Below are positions 3,044-22,162 of a stretch of 24,646 nucleotides of DNA, one piece after another (position 1 is the stretch's first letter; every line of letters begins with the position of its first letter). The notes under the pieces are model-generated. The model was not told the origin of the DNA. It did no database searches and saw only the letters and a program-made list of their open reading frames with translations. Origin of the DNA: a virus. Made by a program: the position numbers and the translations under genes. The stretch spans positions 1 through 24,646 of IMG/VR virus record IMGVR_UViG_3300031963_008595; one strand, given 5' to 3'.

Positions 3044-3706
3044 CTACGAGTGTTTGGAGTTCTTTTTTCTATTTCTTGCAGATTGACGCATTTTTTCTAT
3101 GGTTTCTGGAGAATATTTTCTTCCTTCACAACCGTTAGATTTTCCCTTTTTGGAAGAACTTATTTTATCTTTAATTTCTTCACTATGAGATTTACCTTTC
3201 ATATGACTTGATTTGCCAACTTTAGCATCTCTCATTTTTTGTTTTGACTCTTCAGTATGCTTTCTACCCACCCAATATGTATTACCTTTATGAATATCAC
3301 CAATCTTATTTCTTGCTTTTTGTGATTGTGTTCTACCTTTATTTTTTTCTCCTATCTTATTCTTTACTTCTTCGGGTCTAGGTCTTCCTTTTAGAGCATT
3401 ACTTCTCTTCAGTTTTGTTTCTTCTGTTTGCAAAACACCAGAAGAACCATCACCACCATCAGTTCTATTATGAAGAATACCTGTCCCTAAATCTTTTCTA
3501 CCAAATATAGCAATCATATACTTTTCGTGATTAAATGCATCTCCTTCACTTAAGTTTTGCTTGAGAAGTATTATTTTACTCTTATCTCTAGGAGGTCTTA
3601 TATCATTCTTTGATTTCTTATATACTCGGTCTCCCTTACCTTTACCAATATAATAGGGAGTTTTATCCTCACGCAAATATGCGTAAGTGTAAAAAATGTT
3701 ATTCAT
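3044..3706 (-). CDS. GIY-YIG homing endonuclease with NUMOD3 repeats
   Basis: A 220-aa free-standing homing endonuclease. The GIY-YIG nuclease domain is at the N-terminus (FYTYAYLREDKTPYYIGKGK, residues about 5-24), with the downstream catalytic-region Glu in NHEKYMI. Residues about 95-220 are Lys-rich repeated NUMOD3-type DNA-binding modules (SNALKGRPRPEEVKNKIG, ARNKIGDIHKG, MKGKSHSEEIKDKISSSKKG). T4 Seg proteins and I-TevI share this domain order. It sits immediately downstream of psbD and has its own late promoter and a preceding terminator. The likely role is to cut a related phage near psbD and drive transfer of this region. Confidence 0.92.
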   Translation of the reverse strand: MNNIFYTYAYLREDKTPYYIGKGKGDRVYKKSKNDIRPPRDKSKIILLKQNLSEGDAFNHEKYMIAIFGRKDLGTGILHNRTDGGDGSSGVLQTEETKLKRSNALKGRPRPEEVKNKIGEKNKGRTQSQKARNKIGDIHKGNTYWVGRKHTEESKQKMRDAKVGKSSHMKGKSHSEEIKDKISSSKKGKSNGCEGRKYSPETIEKMRQSARNRKKNSKHS

Positions 3707-5214: not shown

Positions 5215-5616
5215 TTAAATGTCTAAGTATTGTAGCATATTTTGTAAGGTCTGTCTATTTTCCCTTACAAGACCCAATGCCCTATTGCAATGATTGCAAA
5301 GTAATCCCCTAACTTTACCTGTATTATGGTCGTGGTCAACACAAAATTTATCACTGCCCCTATATCCAATAGGGTCTGTCGATTTGCAAGTTGCACACTT
5401 ATAATTTTGTGCCTCTAACATTTCATAATAGTTTTCTTCTGTAATATTATACCTTCTCCGTAGGTCAGCGTCCATTTTAGACAACATATTTCTTTTATTA
5501 TATTTTCTGTTTTCTTTATAACAAGATAAACAGTTCCACATATGCACCCTATTTGGACCAACTCGTTTATATTCTGTTAGTGGTTTATTTACACCACATA
5601 TTTTACAAATACGCAT
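5215..5616 (-). CDS. Endonuclease VII-family homing endonuclease, F-CphI-like by position
   Basis: A 133-aa nuclease of the recombination endonuclease VII (His-Me finger) type. An N-terminal zinc site (C3-x2-C6 and CLSC) is followed by a second CATC site, the catalytic VDHDHNTGKVRGLLCNHCN (about residues 92-110) and a C-terminal helix. From memory, cyanophage S-PM2 encodes F-CphI directly 3' of psbA, a free-standing enzyme that cuts intronless psbA; this gene is in the equivalent place, so the same target is plausible. The ATG abuts the T-tract of the psbA terminator and there is no Shine-Dalgarno, so expression probably depends on read-through. The family is secure; orthology is inferred. 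Confidence 0.85.
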   Translation of the reverse strand: MRICKICGVNKPLTEYKRVGPNRVHMWNCLSCYKENRKYNKRNMLSKMDADLRRRYNITEENYYEMLEAQNYKCATCKSTDPIGYRGSDKFCVDHDHNTGKVRGLLCNHCNRALGLVRENRQTLQNMLQYLDI

Positions 5617-7781: not shown

Positions 7782-7949
7782 ATGAAAAGATTATTTCTTA
7801 TTGGACTATTGATTATCAGATTAATTGTCAATGAAGGAGTATTTCTAAATGCCAGAAGAATCCCCCCAAAAAGACAACCAACAGAAGTCTTCAGATTCAT
7901 CCGAAGACCAGCAAAAAAAGGAAAAAAGAAAGGCGAACCTTTTAGATAA
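7782..7949 (+). CDS. 55-aa protein with N-terminal membrane helix and basic tail
   Basis: Starts ATG 7782, two bases past the nuclease stop, and ends TAA 7949. A short hydrophobic helix (LFLIGLLIIRLIV) is followed by a strongly basic tail (ARRIPPKRQP, RRPAKKGKKKGEP). The last 101 nt are also the start of the 106-aa membrane gene in another frame, so one of the two could be spurious. The signal-anchor plus cationic tail and the position next to cell-wall hydrolase genes would suit a small lysis protein; no lipobox Cys is present. Confidence 0.45.
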   Translation: MKRLFLIGLLIIRLIVNEGVFLNARRIPPKRQPTEVFRFIRRPAKKGKKKGEPFR

Positions 7950-8169
7950 ATTAATCGCTTCTTTAGTTATTGGAACCTTATGTTACATTGGAATTACATT
8001 CATAAATTGTAATTTTATGATTCCAGGTTCAATGGAAAGAGCAGACGCATTAGGAGGATTAGTAAATCCCCCACCCTTAGATTGCAAAGAATCTGAGAGC
8101 AGGGGATATAATGCTTTATTTACTTTATTTACTACACTACTTGGACTAAAAGCAAAGATGGATGATTAA
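7849..8169 (+). CDS. Two-helix small membrane protein, holin-like candidate
   Basis: A 106-aa protein. Residues 1-30 are charged and disordered (Ser/Gln/Lys/Glu-rich). A first membrane helix follows (LDKLIASLVIGTLCYIGITF), then a Cys/Pro-containing loop with GGLVNPPPLDC, and a second weaker helix (YNALFTLFTTLLGLKA). Short two-helix proteins with charged ends beside an endolysin are often holins, but no family match is claimed. An ATG behind GAAGGAG supports the start. Its stop shares TTAA with the stop of the opposing lysozyme ORF, making the units convergent with no spacer. Confidence 0.7.
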   Translation: MPEESPQKDNQQKSSDSSEDQQKKEKRKANLLDKLIASLVIGTLCYIGITFINCNFMIPGSMERADALGGLVNPPPLDCKESESRGYNALFTLFTTLLGLKAKMDD

Positions 8170-8648
8170 GACTTCCACAAGTCCCCTTCTGCTTTTCTTC
8201 TTCTTGCCAGTCCTGCCTCCACATTAGACCCAGGATTTCTATAAAGATACAAGGCATCAGGTACTTTATCCCATTCCTTATTCTTCAAGACTTTTGTAAT
8301 AGTATTGAAGTTGCTACCACCATAGAAACCTGCGCCAAGATTATATGCAAAAGAAAGTAAAGCCCCTCTTTGGTTGTCATTCATCTCACTCCAGTAAGGT
8401 ATTTTTTGTAGCGAAGGAAGAAATCTATTTTCAATATCAAAAACTAAAAGTCTATCTGCATACTCTTGAGTAATTTTTTTTCCTATATTAAATGGTTGTC
8501 CATTAAAATCTTTAGTACTTCCCCAACCAATAGTAATTGGCAATCCTCCCGTTAATGGGTCTGGATAAGCGTTTAAATGACAACCCTCAAACTCCTTTAT
8601 TAATTCAATACCAACTAACGAAACAGTATTGTTAGTTGGCGTTTCTAC
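8166..8648 (-). CDS. GH24 lysozyme domain, expressed as a -1 frameshift extension
   Basis: This 160-codon frame encodes a T4-lysozyme-type muramidase domain. The catalytic Glu is in KEFEGCHLNAYPD, the Asp follows nine residues later, and the Thr is in LPITIGWG; RRRKAEGDLW ends the fold. No ATG, GTG or TTG precedes the catalytic Glu in this frame. The first possible start (TTG 8543) would delete Glu and Asp, so translation must enter from the overlapping peptidase frame, most simply by -1 slippage at 8648-8654. The fused product would be about 392 aa: peptidase, short VETPTNNT linker, lysozyme. Otherwise this is a broken gene or a one-base sequencing error. Confidence 0.85.
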   Translation of the reverse strand, partial: VETPTNNTVSLVGIELIKEFEGCHLNAYPDPLTGGLPITIGWGSTKDFNGQPFNIGKKITQEYADRLLVFDIENRFLPSLQKIPYWSEMNDNQRGALLSFAYNLGAGFYGGSNFNTITKVLKNKEWDKVPDALYLYRNPGSNVEAGLARRRKAEGDLWKS

Positions 8649-8654
8649 TTTTTT
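8611..8654 (-). promoter_or_regulatory. Candidate programmed -1 ribosomal frameshift signal
   Basis: The minus-strand slippery heptamer A AAA AAG (8654-8648) is in phase with the peptidase codons GTA AAA AAG and is followed at once by the TAG stop. Eight nt further on is a perfect 9-bp stem CCAACTAAC/GTTAGTTGG (8639-8631 with 8619-8611) and an 11-nt loop. A purine-rich GGGGAAG (8673-8667) lies 12 nt upstream and may act as an internal Shine-Dalgarno stimulator, as in dnaX. Confidence 0.75.
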
Positions 8655-9343
8655 ACATCAAATAATCTTCCCCATCCATCATTACCTTTAGGGCACCACC
8701 TATGAGAAAGGTCACTTCTCTTATAAACAGCACCTTTACCATTAGTTACTGCACCAGTATAACCATCATTGAGAGAACCATATGGATCATTGACTACATA
8801 ATCACCAGAATGAGTTTTGCCAATCACCACTACCATGTGTCCCCCTGTGGGGTTAGATAGAGGACCGCGATGAAGAATACCAATAACAACAGGTCTACCA
8901 GAGGCAAGCTCTCTATCAAGATCAGCAAAAGTAAGGCTGTAGGAAAAACTGGATTTAATACCATATGACGCAAGAACTTTGGTCTGAACCAAGTGGTCAG
9001 TTGTGTCACCGATTGAGAAAACTTTTTGTACATAGGCGTCATCGCCTTTAGGTCCTTTTAGTGTACCAGGTTTGAAATACTCAAGACACATTGCACATGC
9101 AGAAGAGTTGCAAGTTCTATTTGCATCTCTATAGTTATCTGTTTGTGGATAGAAAGGAACAGGTAAAATTGATGATTGTGGGTTGTCTTCTTTAGTTCTA
9201 TAAATCCTCACCCAGTTTGCATTATCTTGTAGCAAATCTTGTGCTTTAAGTTGCAGATCTTTTTCAAGTTGCTCAACAGCAGCAACATGCTTTGGATTTT
9301 TTTCGTCGTAGTGCTTGAAAAAATTATGGAGATCTATAAGCAT
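8645..9343 (-). CDS. C39-like cysteine peptidase domain protein, N-terminal half of a probable endolysin
   Basis: Encodes 232 aa from the ATG at 9343. An N-terminal helical segment (about residues 1-45) precedes a papain-like C39-type fold. The candidate nucleophile is Cys78 in RTCNSSACAM, with His169 in GGHMVVVIG and Asp186 in VVNDPYGSLNDG. It should cut peptide crosslinks of the cell wall. The frame ends TAG directly after a slippery heptamer, and the -1 frame continues into a GH24 lysozyme, so the short form is peptidase alone and the long form a bifunctional hydrolase. A CATAAATA late promoter lies 23 nt upstream. The TTG at 9355 is a less likely start. Confidence 0.85.
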   Translation of the reverse strand: MLIDLHNFFKHYDEKNPKHVAAVEQLEKDLQLKAQDLLQDNANWVRIYRTKEDNPQSSILPVPFYPQTDNYRDANRTCNSSACAMCLEYFKPGTLKGPKGDDAYVQKVFSIGDTTDHLVQTKVLASYGIKSSFSYSLTFADLDRELASGRPVVIGILHRGPLSNPTGGHMVVVIGKTHSGDYVVNDPYGSLNDGYTGAVTNGKGAVYKRSDLSHRWCPKGNDGWGRLFDVKK

Positions 9344-9366
9344 TATTGTATCCAAACCCTGTACTA

Positions 9367-9374
9367 TATTTATG
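9367..9374 (-). promoter_or_regulatory. Candidate late promoter for the cell-wall hydrolase
   Basis: Minus-strand CATAAATA fits NATAAATA, begins directly after the peroxiredoxin terminator and lies 23 nt before the ATG at 9343. Late timing suits a lysis enzyme. Confidence 0.6.
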
Positions 9375-9400
9375 AAAAAAGGAGGGTTTTATCCCTCCTT
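9375..9400 (-). terminator. Rho-independent terminator of the redox operon
   Basis: On the minus strand an 8-bp perfect stem AAGGAGGG/CCCTCCTT with a 6-nt loop (9400-9379) runs into T6 (9380-9375), three bases past the peroxiredoxin stop codon. Confidence 0.92.
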
Positions 9401-13946: not shown

Positions 13947-14752
13947 GTGGTTTGTTGGGCAGATGAATTTTCAGTTATTCTGCCCAAGAATGGATCATAA
14001 TTCATATAATCCTTAATGTCAATGTTAGCACCATTTTGCTGCCAATACTGCGAGAGAGCATTATAATTTCCTCTATGAAAAGCGTCAATATGATCTGGGT
14101 GAATGCTAGAACCCAATTCAATTCGGTAAAGCAAGAGAGGAATGGAGTAAGTATTACCTGAGTTATAAATCAAATCATCAGCAACAGGTCTTGGTTTAAC
14201 ACCATTATCAAGTTTATACTTATCACCTCGAACATGAAACTTCAAAAGTTTTTCTGCATGATGTCTTGTAATTAGATAACAAGCTGTAGAAAAATCATTT
14301 ACAAACCTCTTATGAAGTTTTACGTGTATATCACCAGTACAAATAATTGCAATTTGAACTACATCCCAATCATAAGGAATATGTGCATAAAAATCAGACC
14401 AAGTAAAGTTCCAATACTTAACTAAATCCAGATTACAATCATCTTCCATAATAATTGCATATGAACTATCGCTTGTTTCATACCAATGTTTAATTGCTTT
14501 CAAATGAGAAGTAATACACCCAACCTCACCTGAGGTCATCATTTCAGGATAACGACCACTAATAATATCACTAAGGTCATCTTCTCTACCATCATATGCA
14601 AAGATGCGAGTATAATTCTCTATCTCCCAATATTTAAATTGGTCCTCCATATATTTTCTTCTTTCAGGTTGCCCATCAAGATTCAAATAATAAATTGGTC
14701 CAATATTTTTAAGTTTATACGTTGATTTATTTTTATCAAGCAAATCATTCAT
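13943..14752 (-). CDS. GT25-type glycosyltransferase
   Basis: Encodes 269 aa from the ATG at 14752 (ATGA overlap with the preceding gene). It has the LPS/GT25 family pattern: YYLNLDGQPERRKYM at the N-terminus, GEVGCITSHLKAIKHW around residue 75, and the metal-binding EDD at residues 103-105 (AIIMEDDCNL). Members add galactose or related sugars to lipooligosaccharides or proteins. It is the last gene of the glycan cluster. The donor and acceptor cannot be read from sequence. Confidence 0.88.
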   Translation of the reverse strand: MNDLLDKNKSTYKLKNIGPIYYLNLDGQPERRKYMEDQFKYWEIENYTRIFAYDGREDDLSDIISGRYPEMMTSGEVGCITSHLKAIKHWYETSDSSYAIIMEDDCNLDLVKYWNFTWSDFYAHIPYDWDVVQIAIICTGDIHVKLHKRFVNDFSTACYLITRHHAEKLLKFHVRGDKYKLDNGVKPRPVADDLIYNSGNTYSIPLLLYRIELGSSIHPDHIDAFHRGNYNALSQYWQQNGANIDIKDYMNYDPFLGRITENSSAQQTT

Positions 14753-15606
14753 ACTACTACCCAACCTGAACAATAAAGATCTTTAGTATCTTTGTCTGCA
14801 TACGCAGGACCAAACCACTTTTGCGGTGCGATAACTTTTTTATTTGGATTACTAATCAACCATGACCCCCACCAACTCAAAGAACTATTAGCAATAATAG
14901 CATGAGAACACAATGACATTAAGCAAAGGTCAGCATATGGCGTATAAGATCCGTCTGGATATTTATCAACTGGTTCGGATACAAAAAATCTATCACTCTC
15001 AAAGAATTCCTGCTCTTTTACCCATTCAGGAGAATCTGAAAATACAATTACAGGATGATCATCATCAAAATAAGAAAGTGCCTTCTCATAATAATCAATT
15101 GATTGCACTGGATGTTGTTCAGAGCAATTTACATATGCCCACTTAAATCCGCGAGGATCAACCAAATTTGGATCTCCTCTGCGAACATGAAGCATGATTG
15201 GTTCCTGACCTTGGAAATTTTCCATCATTTCTTTACAAGGTTCAAGATGCTCATCATGAAAAGTAAAATCCTTACAGATGTCATCTGAAATATGTTGAAA
15301 ATATTTTTCAGATTGAAAAAATCCATGAAGACTTACATTATCTGGACAATTCTCAAAAAGTTCCTCATCAAAGTGAAAGAATCTTTCTTGAACATATCCA
15401 AAGTCATCTCTAAAATTTAAATTAAAATCTTCAACAGACTCCAATTTAAAACAATTATGTAGACTGTAATTTTCAATACCACTTCTATGAAATGGTGGAA
15501 TACACCAATCATAATTATGTTTAGCAGCAATCCCTCTTAGAGATGCATACTCAAACATTTGATTACCAAGTCTGCCAAGATTTCCAATCTGATTAAATGC
15601 TAACAT
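14749..15606 (-). CDS. GT11 alpha-1,2-fucosyltransferase, copy 1
   Basis: A 285-aa GT11 enzyme. GRLGNQMFEYASLRGIA at residues 11-27 and the donor-binding HVRRGD at 140-145 are hallmark motifs, and SSLSWWGSWL at 241-250 closes the site. The family transfers fucose from GDP-fucose to a galactose 2-OH. It is a clear paralogue of the gene at 17153-17926 (shared WCIPP, FDE-LFE-C-DNV-L-GFFQ-EKYF and NSS-SWWG blocks), so a tandem duplication with intervening genes is likely. It overlaps both neighbours by a few bases. Confidence 0.93.
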   Translation of the reverse strand: MLAFNQIGNLGRLGNQMFEYASLRGIAAKHNYDWCIPPFHRSGIENYSLHNCFKLESVEDFNLNFRDDFGYVQERFFHFDEELFENCPDNVSLHGFFQSEKYFQHISDDICKDFTFHDEHLEPCKEMMENFQGQEPIMLHVRRGDPNLVDPRGFKWAYVNCSEQHPVQSIDYYEKALSYFDDDHPVIVFSDSPEWVKEQEFFESDRFFVSEPVDKYPDGSYTPYADLCLMSLCSHAIIANSSLSWWGSWLISNPNKKVIAPQKWFGPAYADKDTKDLYCSGWVVV

Positions 15607-16408: not shown

Positions 16409-17153
16409 CTGGATATTTTCTATTGATGCAAAATTCTTTATGCTTATTTTGGACGTAGTGATACTCTGATCTATTAATCAACCAACTACCTTCTGGATGT
16501 TCTACCACTGCATCATATTGAGATGTTTGATGACTACTAATGCGATTGTCATGGTCACGGTTTGCAACTAAGACATCAGAAATAATATGGGGAACTCCAT
16601 TCTCCCAACGCATACGATGATAAAACTCAGTATCTAAAAGTAGTTTTAGATTCTCATCAAAGTGTTGCTTTGAATTTCCCAAAAAAGAGACAACAGAAGG
16701 ACCACTTAAAAGATTTCTACCTTCTAACATGTAGTCTGTCCACTGAGGAACTCTTTCATCATAAAATGTTTTACCATCTTTAGTTCCACAAAATCCACTA
16801 AAAGACCAGGAACACCCAGTCTTTTTATATTCCTGATCAAGAATTTCTAAAGCATTATCCACAACGAAGAGATCATCAGAAAACATCGGTTTAATAATCT
16901 CTCCCTCACACTCATCAAGGGCAATATTAATATTTTCGCAAGGAATATTTCCACTATACTTTACATATTTGAAATCAAAATCATTGGAGTATTCCTTACA
17001 CGCATTTAAAATTTTATCATTTTTACTTTGATCCGAAACAACTATTTCCAAATCTTGAAACGTTTGAGTCTTAATAGAGTCAAGAAGTTCTCTCATCCAT
17101 ACTGGACCATTTTCTCCCCTATCATGCGCAGGAATTGCAATAGAAAATCTCAT
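16398..17153 (-). CDS. Family 2 glycosyltransferase
   Basis: Encodes 251 aa from the ATG at 17153, sharing a base with the upstream stop. A classical GT2 start (MRFSIAIPAHDRGE) is followed by WMRELLDSIKTQTFQDLEIV, VVSDQS, and the metal site FSDD at 91-94 (IKPMFSDDLFVVDN). The acceptor half has DTEFYHRMRWENG. These inverting enzymes extend polysaccharides from nucleotide sugars. There are no membrane helices, so it should act in the cytoplasm. Confidence 0.9.
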   Translation of the reverse strand: MRFSIAIPAHDRGENGPVWMRELLDSIKTQTFQDLEIVVSDQSKNDKILNACKEYSNDFDFKYVKYSGNIPCENINIALDECEGEIIKPMFSDDLFVVDNALEILDQEYKKTGCSWSFSGFCGTKDGKTFYDERVPQWTDYMLEGRNLLSGPSVVSFLGNSKQHFDENLKLLLDTEFYHRMRWENGVPHIISDVLVANRDHDNRISSHQTSQYDAVVEHPEGSWLINRSEYHYVQNKHKEFCINRKYPDEN

Positions 17154-17926
17154 CAAATACGCTCCCAAGAATCAGGGACTAAATCACGATCATCAAGATT
17201 CGCTTGAGGACCAAACCAAACCTTGGGAGCAATAACTTTTTTACTACCAGAGAGCCAAGCACCCCACCAACTAAAAGAACTATTTGCAATGATGTGATAA
17301 CTGCACATTGTCATTAGACACATATCAACCAAATTATTATCAGATTCAGAGATAAGAAATCTATCTGGTTGAAAAATATCTTGCTTTTTACACCACTCAG
17401 TATCATCTGAAAAAATAAGAACTGGAATATCTTGAGGAAGTCTTTTCAGTGCTTCCTCATAGTATTCTATAGAGCAAAGTGGATGATAGTTCTGTTTTTG
17501 AACATAATCACTTCTACGAATATGTAAGGAAATTGCTTCATCAAAAGTAAACATCTCTTTACATGGATTCCGAATATCATCTACAAAGATGAAATCTTCA
17601 CGAATCTGTTGTTCAATGTACTTAAAATACTTTTCGGTTTGAAAGAATCCATAAAGATTTACATTGTCCTGACAAGTTTCAAATAGATCTTCATCAAAAG
17701 TAAAAGACTTTTCTTCAACATAAGTTGCACCAAGCATCTCAACATTCTTCACAGAAGGAAGTTTGAAGGCTTCAAACAACTGATGGTCTTTATGCTCGTT
17801 ACGAAAGTCACTTGGAGGAATACACCATTCATATCCATGCTTTTCTGCAATTCCTCTTAATGCAGCATATTGAAACATTTGATTACCAAGTCTACCATTA
17901 CGACCCAAATGATTATAACCAATCAT
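17153..17926 (-). CDS. GT11 alpha-1,2-fucosyltransferase, copy 2
   Basis: Encodes 257 aa from the ATG at 17926, chosen because GAGG lies 5 nt upstream and because GT11 proteins begin a few residues before GRLGNQMF (here residues 11-18). HIRRSDY at 135-141 and NSSFSWWGAWL near the C-terminus complete the family signature. In-frame sequence upstream of 17926 is coding for the neighbouring DUF5672 gene in another frame. It is a paralogue of the gene at 14749-15606; differences in the acceptor region (the two diverge most near the HxRRxD motif) suggest different linkages. Confidence 0.93.
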   Translation of the reverse strand: MIGYNHLGRNGRLGNQMFQYAALRGIAEKHGYEWCIPPSDFRNEHKDHQLFEAFKLPSVKNVEMLGATYVEEKSFTFDEDLFETCQDNVNLYGFFQTEKYFKYIEQQIREDFIFVDDIRNPCKEMFTFDEAISLHIRRSDYVQKQNYHPLCSIEYYEEALKRLPQDIPVLIFSDDTEWCKKQDIFQPDRFLISESDNNLVDMCLMTMCSYHIIANSSFSWWGAWLSGSKKVIAPKVWFGPQANLDDRDLVPDSWERI

Positions 17927-17933
17927 AATTACC

Positions 17934-18611
17934 TCAACGAATATCCTGAACAAAAAAATGAAATCCAAAAGTCTCAATATCATCATGATATGGAGATATA
18001 TGCCTTTCTTTAGAAAACTTTGCGGCAACTTCTACTGGAGCAAATTTGCATCCTTGCTCTTCGTATATATGCCTATTATGAACACAGATGTTTCCATCTT
18101 CCGACGTTGATCCATATCCAAAATGCTTATAAAAATTGCCTTTATTCACATCCCAAGGAACTTGAACTTTGGTTGGAATATCAAGAAGTTTCTTACTCCT
18201 AAAACTAAATCCACCATTACCAACAGAAATATGTTCACCAAAAGGAGTTATGAATGATGCTTCTTCCCACCTCCACGGTGCTCCAATATAGTCGTAGTTA
18301 AACCAATTGTCATCCCATTGCAATGGTCTAATAACATACCCATCTGGTTGAACAAGTAGACAATAATCAGTATCTATGTGTTTGGTGAGATTATAAATGC
18401 AGTAATAGTTATAATCATGAATTGATTCAATTTTATAGCATTTTGAGAACTCAATTTCTTCAGGCAAATTACATGGATCTTCGTGAGTGATCAATTTAAC
18501 CTTTCCAAAGGAGATACCCTCCATACTTTTTTGTAAAGCATAGAGAGCACCATCAATATTATTGGATGAAATGCAAAAGAGAGTTACATTTGGGAGACTA
18601 ATTTTATTCAT
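17934..18611 (-). CDS. DUF5672-family glycosyltransferase-like protein
   Basis: A 225-aa protein matching my memory of DUF5672: YNYYCIYNLTKHIDTDYCLL, LVQPDGYVIRPLQWDDNW, YDYIGAPWRW, VGNGGFSFRSKKLL and FAPVEVAAKFSKE occur in the family order. These are predicted GT-A-like enzymes found in polysaccharide clusters; the QPDG element probably takes the place of a DxD motif. It overlaps the preceding gene by 8 nt. Catalytic activity is inferred from the family and cluster, not shown. Confidence 0.82.
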   Translation of the reverse strand: MNKISLPNVTLFCISSNNIDGALYALQKSMEGISFGKVKLITHEDPCNLPEEIEFSKCYKIESIHDYNYYCIYNLTKHIDTDYCLLVQPDGYVIRPLQWDDNWFNYDYIGAPWRWEEASFITPFGEHISVGNGGFSFRSKKLLDIPTKVQVPWDVNKGNFYKHFGYGSTSEDGNICVHNRHIYEEQGCKFAPVEVAAKFSKERHISPYHDDIETFGFHFFVQDIR

Positions 18612-19590
18612 ACTTAACTAAAACACCAGAAGTTTCGGGATTAATCACATACGTATACCTACGATAATCCTGCCAACAATCATTTCCTGTTTTAATATTA
18701 CCAGACCTATCCATATAAGTCCACTCAGGAACGATAGAATCAACAGGTCTCCACCATCCATCAGAAGTATTCCAATCAAACCAATACATTGGAACAATGA
18801 TATTTTTGAGTTCTGTTGACAACCAAACAGGCCAGAAAGAAAAAGTAGAGGAAGACATAATCACATTCTTTGCTGCGTGCAAAATACTATAATCAATAGA
18901 TAGAGGTCCACCTTTCATTTGATACCAACCGATCTTATAGTCGGGTCCACCTGGTTCATTAGAAACTGCTGCACCAACAACTTCAACTCCAGGAATATGT
19001 TTTCGCGCAAGATCTGCATCGTCAGTTACAATCACAAATCGCATATCACTTTTCTTTTCTTTCATTCTCTCAATTGCCATTTGATAGTATTGGGGCGGTA
19101 AGAATGAAAATCCAGTGGAGTAATCTCCTCCACGAAAATGAATTACACAAATATCGTCTGCAGAATAATCAGTAATGACTTTATCTTCATCAACTTTACA
19201 CCACTCACGAATATCATCACGTCGATCTTCAATATACAACATATTCTGGAATGTTCCATCCAGTTTAGTATTGTCCGGGAGAAAGAAAAGTCCGTGGTCA
19301 ATAGGATTCATATCATGCTGATGACGACCCTCTTTATAGTGACCTTCCTGACGTTCACGATACCAGTACTCAATACCTTCAGGTAGAGTGTCTGGAGGTC
19401 CGCCATCAGGTCCAGATCCACCCACAACATCCTTTCCCCAGAAGTAAGGCATCCAACCGTTTCCCTTCCACAGTTCTTTGCCTTTGATGCCGTACTCATA
19501 TCCAAGTTTTTCCGCAATGATACGAGTCACAACAGATGCCCAAATCTGGTTACCAAGACCAGATCCAAGATACATTTCATTTACTAACAT
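18604..19590 (-). CDS. Divergent fucosyltransferase-like (GT11-related) enzyme
   Basis: A 328-aa protein with the GT11 skeleton in altered form: GSGLGNQIW at 9-17 replaces GRLGNQMF, HFRGGDY at 151-157 is the GDP-sugar motif, and SSSTFSFWPVWL at 246-257 matches the C-terminal NSSFSWWGAWL block. A Gly-rich insertion (KDVVGGSGPDGGPP, about 53-66) and a C-terminal extension after residue 285 set it apart from the two clear GT11 genes. It has probably diverged in acceptor or donor. It overlaps the upstream gene by 14 nt. Confidence 0.8.
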   Translation of the reverse strand: MLVNEMYLGSGLGNQIWASVVTRIIAEKLGYEYGIKGKELWKGNGWMPYFWGKDVVGGSGPDGGPPDTLPEGIEYWYRERQEGHYKEGRHQHDMNPIDHGLFFLPDNTKLDGTFQNMLYIEDRRDDIREWCKVDEDKVITDYSADDICVIHFRGGDYSTGFSFLPPQYYQMAIERMKEKKSDMRFVIVTDDADLARKHIPGVEVVGAAVSNEPGGPDYKIGWYQMKGGPLSIDYSILHAAKNVIMSSSTFSFWPVWLSTELKNIIVPMYWFDWNTSDGWWRPVDSIVPEWTYMDRSGNIKTGNDCWQDYRRYTYVINPETSGVLVKYE

Positions 19591-20527: not shown

Positions 20528-21375
20528 GGTTTAATAAATTCTGCGTATTTTTCTTGATTGTCAATGATGTAGTCTGGATATGAGTCATCAATGGGAATTG
20601 TTTTTATTTGAATAGACCTACCAAAAGGATCAATACCTTCGTCAATTTTTCTTTCCGCGTTTGCAGTATTAGTATCTACGTTATTTTCAGTATGTTCATA
20701 TGAAGCCAATTTCAATCTAAAATTATCTGCGTCACCAAAGAAACTCCAATGCCAACCCGCTTGCTCAATCCTATAAGCATCTTTATGCATATTTCTCAAA
20801 AGATCTACAGAATAATTTGAAAGGGTTTTAAATGTAGAAATCCTTGTTCCCATCCAATCATCTTGATAAAGATAGTTTAACTTGTAGTAAAACGCTTTCT
20901 GTAGACAAACATAATGATTGTTTGGATCAAACCAAGATAGATCTTTAAGAACTAAAGGATTAATAATTTCATCAGCATCACTGGTAAGAATAATATCATC
21001 ATCATTGATTCCAAAATTTACTGATCCATAAATGCTACTATCTCTATTAAAGATGGCTCTTTGAAAACGAATTGGATACTCTCTATAATGAGTTCCATTC
21101 AAATCATTTCCACCCATAGGAGTATGATACTTTTTCTTATCCATATAATCACTATAGTCATTGGGAATTTCTTCAGTGATATTATGAATAATTTTATGAT
21201 CGAACTTAGAAAATCTTTCTTTGTTTTCCTGATAGTAAAGTGGTTTAGGATTTCCACTAACAGTCCAAGGAGACTCTGTAATTACAAAATAATCAACAAC
21301 ATCATTAAGTATATTAAGTCTAAGTTCAAGAAGATCTAACTCATTGAAAAAGATAAAAGAATCAAACACCCTCAT
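20518..21375 (-). CDS. GT17-family glycosyltransferase
   Basis: Encodes 285 aa from the ATG at 21375, which overlaps the previous gene by 14 nt; in-frame sequence above it belongs to that gene. The start MRVFDSFIFFNELDLLELRL, then VITESPWTVSGNPKP, the metal site SDADE at 132-136 and AGWHWSFFGD are diagnostic of GT17 (beta-1,4-N-acetylglucosaminyltransferase III-like). Bacterial and phage members act on surface glycans. It is probably cytoplasmic. Confidence 0.9.
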   Translation of the reverse strand: MRVFDSFIFFNELDLLELRLNILNDVVDYFVITESPWTVSGNPKPLYYQENKERFSKFDHKIIHNITEEIPNDYSDYMDKKKYHTPMGGNDLNGTHYREYPIRFQRAIFNRDSSIYGSVNFGINDDDIILTSDADEIINPLVLKDLSWFDPNNHYVCLQKAFYYKLNYLYQDDWMGTRISTFKTLSNYSVDLLRNMHKDAYRIEQAGWHWSFFGDADNFRLKLASYEHTENNVDTNTANAERKIDEGIDPFGRSIQIKTIPIDDSYPDYIIDNQEKYAEFIKPWN

Positions 21376-22162
21376 TTTTATACTCCAGAATAAATTTACG
21401 TTGCTCCTCGTCGTTTTTCCAATTCTTAAGTTGAATATAATTTTCAAGTTCCATCACATAAACAGTGACCCCTTCAGTTTTCATTAACATCCCAGGATTT
21501 AAGTGCTCATCAAGGTATAAGTTCGTACAATAAAAATTGTTGAGATTAGAAGAGCATAATCCAGCAGCAACAGCAAAAGTACCAATACCAGAAGAGGCAA
21601 GATTTTTTGCTCTCATAAGAGTTGCAAAATCCTCTCCTACTGATTTTGATTGTATGGTTACTTTTTCAATCTTTCTAAGTTCATCAACTATGGGATTATA
21701 GTTATCTGGTTCAGTGACCACGATTACTTTATCGTATTCCTCAATCAAATTTAAGTAATAACATAAAGGATTGGGAACATAATCATGTGGAGGATTGTGT
21801 TTATGCGCAAAAATATCTCCACTACGAATATGAATGACTAAAGTATCATCATCAAATGGTTTATCAATGCTAAATTTAAAGTTTGGAACTACATGTTGCT
21901 TTGCAACTTTTCCAATATTTTCATATAGAAAATCAATAGGAATATCAAAGTCTTTATTTTGTGTATTATAGTGAAAAAATCTATTTGGACGAAGCATTGT
22001 TTTGCCTTCGTGATTCAATATGACTTGTTCAATTAATTCATGGGGAGGACTAACAAATCCGTCTCCATGAATTTGAGAGTATAGAATTCCATTGCAGATT
22101 TGTTGAATATTATTTCCAAGTCTCCCATACCAATGAGAGACACTATTCACAATACTTCTCAT
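21362..22162 (-). CDS. Fucosyltransferase-superfamily enzyme
   Basis: A 266-aa protein with an N-terminal GRLGNNIQQICNGI (residues 13-26) and HIRSGDIF at 111-118, the two blocks that define the GDP-fucose-using GT-B superfamily. It is shorter and more diverged than the GT11 genes, and the C-terminal serine block is replaced by ASSGIGTFAVAAGL. It starts in an ATGA overlap with the FkbM gene. This is the fourth GNQ/HxRxGD-type gene of the cluster. Confidence 0.78.
   Translation of the reverse strand: MRSIVNSVSHWYGRLGNNIQQICNGILYSQIHGDGFVSPPHELIEQVILNHEGKTMLRPNRFFHYNTQNKDFDIPIDFLYENIGKVAKQHVVPNFKFSIDKPFDDDTLVIHIRSGDIFAHKHNPPHDYVPNPLCYYLNLIEEYDKVIVVTEPDNYNPIVDELRKIEKVTIQSKSVGEDFATLMRAKNLASSGIGTFAVAAGLCSSNLNNFYCTNLYLDEHLNPGMLMKTEGVTVYVMELENYIQLKNWKNDEEQRKFILEYKNEGV

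Follow-up and report, generated by a model that had tools for sequence, protein, structure and literature searches.

A probable programmed -1 frameshift linking peptidase and lysozyme in a cyanophage endolysin

Introduction

Among tailed phages, the best-known programmed frameshifts are those of structural genes. In the tail-chaperone genes G/GT of lambda-like phages and E+E' of P2-like phages, some ribosomes extend into an overlapping -1 frame, and the two-product output is conserved. The Escherichia coli dnaX gene (tau/gamma) combines an in-phase A AAA AAG with a downstream hairpin and a Shine-Dalgarno-like element, the 0 frame giving the long protein and the -1 frame truncating it; in E. 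coli, a sole tRNA-Lys makes this heptamer slip (PMC5009743). Endolysins can also come in two forms: CTP1L/CD27L, phi2638A, Lys170 and LysIME-EF1 each give a long and a short lysin from one gene, possibly acting together, the short one being a C-terminal fragment made from an internal in-frame start.

Here we analyse a cyanophage lysin locus in which a C39 peptidase ORF is followed by a lysozyme in the -1 frame. Its signal fits the dnaX type, as the first-pass annotation of this DNA had proposed. The in-phase A AAA AAG and a downstream hairpin are shared and, in genomes of the likely host type, tRNA-Lys(UUU) is the only tRNA-Lys. The polarity is opposite, for here the -1 frame would extend the protein by a second enzyme; the early -1 stop of dnaX occurs only in ACG-2014f and in one further relative (L215). 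As in the tail genes, some ribosomes would continue into an overlapping frame, but the product is a lysis enzyme rather than a tail-assembly protein, and what would be added is an entire catalytic domain. Unlike the short forms of the internal-start endolysins, the short form here would be the N-terminal enzyme, released by a 0-frame stop, while the lysozyme lies in another frame and has no start before its catalytic Glu. Homologous domains make up the in-frame C39-lysozyme endolysins of ACG-2014f and, in reversed order, of S-CREM1, which are single ORFs and would each make one product, barring an active heptamer in ACG-2014f.

As a mechanism this would be nothing new in kind. In the literature that we searched, which gives partial coverage, no endolysin was found to be made in this way, and the first-pass annotation had likewise known of no phage lysis enzyme controlled this way. 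Papers pairing "frameshift" with "endolysin" concerned, where checked, tail genes or citations, and one genome note reports predicted frameshifts in genes near endolysins.

Results

The lysin unit and its neighbourhood

The window, by which we mean the whole 24.6-kb virus record analysed, comes from a T4-like cyanophage, to judge from its ORFs, which include psbA, psbD, PstS, ferredoxin and a high-light protein, and from its relatives. These infect Synechococcus, and those nearest to it that have a name are Kyanoviridae. The lysin unit lies on the minus strand, with a peroxiredoxin gene on one side and a convergent 106-aa ORF on the other. The C39 peptidase ORF (8645-9343) encodes the predicted short, 0-frame product of 232 aa from an ATG at 9343, with a TTG at 9355 as an alternative possible start. 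A module of about 50 aa (LHNFFKHYDEKNPKH..) forms the N-terminus and is followed by a Peptidase_C39_2 domain (Pfam PF13529, E 2.8e-13, 51.1 bits against a cut-off of 24). By inspection, the Cys, His and Asp residues are present (RTCNSSAC, GGHM, NDPYG), and the ORF matches PHROG 10051 (endolysin) and PHROG 3617. The -1 frame (8166-8648, minus strand) encodes a GH24 phage lysozyme (Pfam PF00959, E 8.7e-23, 81.4 bits against a cut-off of 22.3) with the Glu-X8-Asp..Thr motif (FEGCHLNAYPD..TIGWG) and with GH24 relatives of solved structure. Read through the shift, the long product is a C39-lysozyme fusion of 392 aa.

Upstream of the C39 start, on the same strand, lies a T4-type late-promoter-like motif, CATAAATA (9367-9374), whose position would fit late expression. 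Among relatives, NATAAATA motifs occur within 150 nt upstream at 62% of loci with the frameshift arrangement, compared with 42% of loci where the lysozyme is a separate gene. A terminator-like hairpin read from the sequence, AAGGAGGGATAAAACCCTCCTTTTTT (9375-9400, minus strand), parts the lysin unit from the upstream peroxiredoxin gene.

The convergent 106-aa ORF (7849-8169, plus strand) has hydrophobic segments and overlaps the lysozyme end by 4 nt; it is possibly a putative holin or membrane protein, and Pfam and PHROG searches gave no match. Elsewhere in the window, four minus-strand ORFs (14749-15606, 17153-18028, 18604-19590 and 21362-22162) carry, by inspection, GRLGNQMF-like or related motifs; their products resemble alpha-1,2-fucosyltransferases, and they sit in a run of glycosyltransferase-like genes. 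Also by inspection, three minus-strand ORFs beside psbD and psbA (2550-2921, 3044-3706 and 5215-5616) look like homing endonucleases of HNH, GIY-YIG and endonuclease VII-like types.

The junction in the window

The first-pass annotation had read a frameshift signal at the end of the peptidase ORF, and every base of its description holds. The ORF, on the minus strand, ends GTA AAA AAG TAG, the slippery heptamer A AAA AAG (8654-8648, with the A6 run at 8654-8649 and the G at 8648) being in phase with the C39 frame and directly before the 0-frame TAG (8647-8645). Read in -1 from 8648, the sequence stays open for 160 codons up to a stop at 8168-8166; the catalytic Glu is codon 21 of this frame (8588-8586), ahead of the first ATG, GTG or TTG (a TTG at 8543). 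A perfect 9-bp stem follows the heptamer by 8 nt, within the spacing of about 5-8 nt that marks dnaX-type signals: the hairpin, a probable stimulator, spans 8611-8639 on the minus strand, with CCAACTAAC (8639-8631), an 11-nt loop and GTTAGTTGG (8619-8611).

GGGGAAG, a possible Shine-Dalgarno-like element, also lies where it had been placed, 12 nt before the heptamer (8673-8667, minus strand). It encodes a conserved Trp-Gly-Arg, and its anti-Shine-Dalgarno pairing is no stronger than in control genes. A role as a selected stimulator is unproven, as such selection would be indistinguishable from the coding constraint on the protein.

By itself, the signal in the window is modest: the heptamer is common and the hairpin moderate. 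AAAAAAG occurs 20 times in the window, 14.5 occurrences being expected, so the heptamer alone is not rare. The hairpin folds at -12.8 kcal/mol over 8645-8600 (z -3.8; 1 of 200 shuffles as good) and is less exceptional on a 65-nt segment, with z -1.5, or -1.1 against synonymous recoding. The comparative evidence is therefore decisive.

Heptamer and frame across relatives

We collected about 270 loci by scanning IMG/VR and by BLAST of GenBank phages. Junctions were taken where the lysozyme followed within 60 nt of the C39 stop; after removal of duplicates and of genes whose start overlaps that stop, 65 distinct start-less junctions were left, which are related sequences and not 65 independent events. 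Whenever the lysozyme directly follows the C39 stop without an overlapping start, it is in the -1 frame. All 65 junctions carry an in-phase X XXY YYZ heptamer at the stop or at most two codons from it, A AAA AAG in 63 and T TTT TTT in two, the latter in a separate lineage (S-CAM7). At the C39 end of the 63 controls no heptamer was found, either in the 45 genes with a separate lysozyme gene or in the 18 without a lysozyme.

Codon choice at the junction is just as uniform. Where the heptamer is A AAA AAG, Lys-Lys is written AAA-AAG in 63 of 63 junctions, as against 1 of 30 Lys-Lys pairs elsewhere in the same C39 genes, and the codon before it ends in A every time (63/63). ATG, GTG and TTG are absent from the -1 frame before the catalytic Glu in 31 of 69 junctions, a count that predates the removal of some overlapping-start cases, and are scattered in the rest; many junctions hold a GTG or TTG somewhere ahead of this Glu, and no start codon is consistent. 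Purifying selection acts on both parts, with dN/dS of 0.17 for the -1-frame lysozyme in relatives and 0.14 for C39. In fact, the comparison of homologues that the first-pass annotation had named as the test recovers all three elements, a conserved heptamer, a stem and a frame break. The opposite outcome that it had named, homologues all in frame without a slippery site, is not what was found, and the part of it that stands is that some relatives are in frame, or have overlapping starts or separate genes. Frameshifting, so read from the sequences, is one of several solutions in this group, beside in-frame fusions, overlapping starts and separate genes.

Cultured phages carry the break as well. 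S-PM2, deposited twice, has an identical frame break in both deposits, and three S-CAM7 isolates show one too. With the shift taken into account, the S-PM2 gene would give a C39-lysozyme protein resembling that of the window; it would read LFDAKK-VTSSTSR across the junction, and in the -1 frame no ATG, GTG or TTG comes before VTSSTSR. Its annotated lysin is a 72-aa stub (L001/L304, 1576-1794), and the S-CAM7 lysin (L005, L305 and L306) is annotated at 1359-1631 or 1413-1631. Such genomes list as lysins these stubs of 72-90 aa, which start in mid-domain (MNDNQRG.. or LKDEY..) and lack the catalytic Glu, an annotation artefact that the frameshift would explain.

The downstream hairpin

Folding downstream of the heptamer, scored against dinucleotide shuffles, has a mean z of -2.57 in the frameshift class, compared with -0.63 in the overlapping-start, -0.09 in the separate-gene and -0.50 in the no-lysozyme classes. 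A control segment 100 nt further downstream in the frameshift class gives z -1.17, so that folding there is also somewhat above chance. Against synonymous recoding the mean z of the class is -1.99, with 46% of junctions at p<=0.05 and 23% at p<=0.01; some hairpins, including that of the window over 65 nt, are not individually exceptional by this measure.

In a register search, stems begin 2-8 nt past the heptamer in 64 of 65 junctions; as this search picks the best register for each sequence, the fold tests above are the more stringent of the two. There are three main registers, plus unique solutions. The 3' arm mostly codes the lysozyme start (LVGIEL, CGVDL, KGVEL) and still has a matching 5' arm in sequences that are unrelated to each other (CCAACTAAC, TCAACACCAC, ACTCTACTCC, CCCCCACTAT). 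Pairing in one register covers 98.5% of cells, against 20-68% when the arms are slid; in the second register tested it covers 100%, against 39-58%. Compensatory changes are few: three cells in the first and none in the second. In the latter, the GGAGTAGA-type stem family, the covariation test found no two-sided changes, and support comes from full pairing as compared with slid controls.

Other arrangements as natural experiments

At eight junctions (L002, L036, L054, L072, L074, L075, L077 and L079) an ATG or GTG overlaps the C39 stop. Here the hairpin is weak or absent (the z of -0.63 above) and the heptamer decays to GCA AAA AAA or GCA GCA AAG or is lost, five of the eight keeping A AAA AAG. 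Such decay of both elements is expected once the lysozyme owns a start.

Inside a distant clade of in-frame fusions, the frame of S-CAM7 and its relatives is broken; the heptamer at this break is T TTT TTT, and the hairpin is a new one. A fully supported branch of the tree, in which support within the clade is patchy, parts them from the A AAA AAG clade, and the two versions would represent convergence. ACG-2014f (L007, L193-L196) and L215, by comparison, are in-frame C39-lysozyme fusions that retain an in-phase A AAA AAG, from which a -1 shift meets TGA. The region is present in 45 ACG-2014f records, and the heptamer was read in five distinct sequences of this type. Taken by itself, the hairpin of ACG-2014f falls short of significance (z -1.46), and a dnaX polarity in these phages is suggestive only. 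Two further groups of in-frame fusions (L210-L213 and L214) have A7 at the heptamer and keep the hairpin; they may reflect natural conversion to a fusion or a homopolymer error.

Other relatives place the domains differently. S-CREM1 (L003, 580-1761) has the reversed order in one ORF, with the lysozyme first and then the N-terminal module and C39. Where the genes are separate, the lysozyme often has its own copy of an N-terminal module resembling that of the C39 protein. One stand-alone lysozyme (L006, 1440-2111) carries a module of about 50 aa like that of the C39 protein (LHNFFKFYDEKNP..); another (L227) has one of about the same length and a different look. The copies that resemble the C39 protein's module suggest that a lysozyme joined to such a module is what most arrangements would deliver. 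In the podovirus S-CBP4 (L393, 1501-2030), an unannotated C39 region is split mid-domain between two frames, which could be an error, decay or another case of recoding.

Discussion

We propose that, in these viruses of picocyanobacteria, both ORFs belong to a single endolysin gene whose translation relies on programmed -1 ribosomal frameshifting, a reading to which we give a probability of about 0.88. Translation would first run through the N-terminal module and then the C39 peptidase. At A AAA AAG, tRNA-Lys(UUU) would fill the P and A sites while the ribosome meets the hairpin 2-8 nt downstream. Some ribosomes would end at the adjacent TAG or TAA and release the peptidase alone; the rest would move back by a single base and read on through the GH24 lysozyme, which yields the peptidase-lysozyme fusion, so that the lysozyme would be expressed only as a C-terminal extension of the C39 protein. 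At late lysis the two products would presumably cooperate to cut cross-links and glycan strands. That the slip occurs on the ribosome, and how efficiently, we infer; the two forms foreseen by the first-pass annotation gain support from the comparison of relatives. The tRNA background resembles that of E. coli: two alpha-cyanobacterial genomes each have one tRNA-Lys, with anticodon UUU (Rfam tRNA search and ARAGORN), which would read both AAA and AAG. They represent the likely host type, being picked by the alpha-carboxysome protein CsoS2, and may differ from the host of the window phage.

The main rival, which we regard as unlikely, is transcriptional slippage, whereby RNA polymerase adds an A within the A6 run, or a T within the T8 of S-CAM7, to give in-frame fusion mRNAs. 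An added A yields the identical fusion, the two contig groups with A7 truly carry it in frame, and T8 is of borderline length for slippage. Yet A6 is short compared with the homopolymer runs of about nine or more in genes that use transcriptional slippage, and nine is also the length at which selection against runs prone to slippage typically shows (PMC1088944). Slippage on DNA would also favour longer runs, which occur only in the L049 group (GAA AAA AAG), whereas a ribosome would require just what is seen, an A AAA AAG that is exact down to its closing G, in phase and followed by a stem. On present evidence, the mechanism would be ribosomal rather than transcriptional.

Still less probable is a free lysozyme, begun by reinitiation or internally at a weak start codon after the C39 stop, with the heptamer as a by-product. 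The eight relatives with an ATG or GTG over the C39 stop do have this classical coupled arrangement, but it is precisely there that the hairpin fades and the heptamer decays, both being present where the start is absent; moreover, the window, S-PM2 and the 31 of 69 junctions noted above have no canonical start ahead of the catalytic Glu. That the gene is decayed, or that sequencing or assembly went wrong, has next to nothing in its favour beyond the homopolymer run at the break. The one-base error or A7 that the first-pass annotation kept as its alternative fails, and we rejected it: the break recurs across scores of contigs, S-PM2 (both deposits) and three S-CAM7 isolates have it too, and another record, 99.99% identical over 6.7 kb, has the identical run. 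Purifying selection on both frames argues against decay.

A more tentative idea, to which we give slightly less than an even chance, is that the heptamer and hairpin set the ratio of peptidase to peptidase-lysozyme, that selection has kept this two-product output along separate routes (A AAA AAG with a -1 extension, T TTT TTT with a -1 extension, and an in-frame fusion whose heptamer truncates in -1), and that the ratio is a trait that tunes lysis. The frameshift itself, if true, would mean that host lysis is controlled at translation in phages that abound in the sea and in fresh water, the cultured S-PM2 among them. The lysin family would then offer a natural series, from separate genes and overlapping starts to frameshift and fusion, in which the gain and loss of a recoding signal can be followed.
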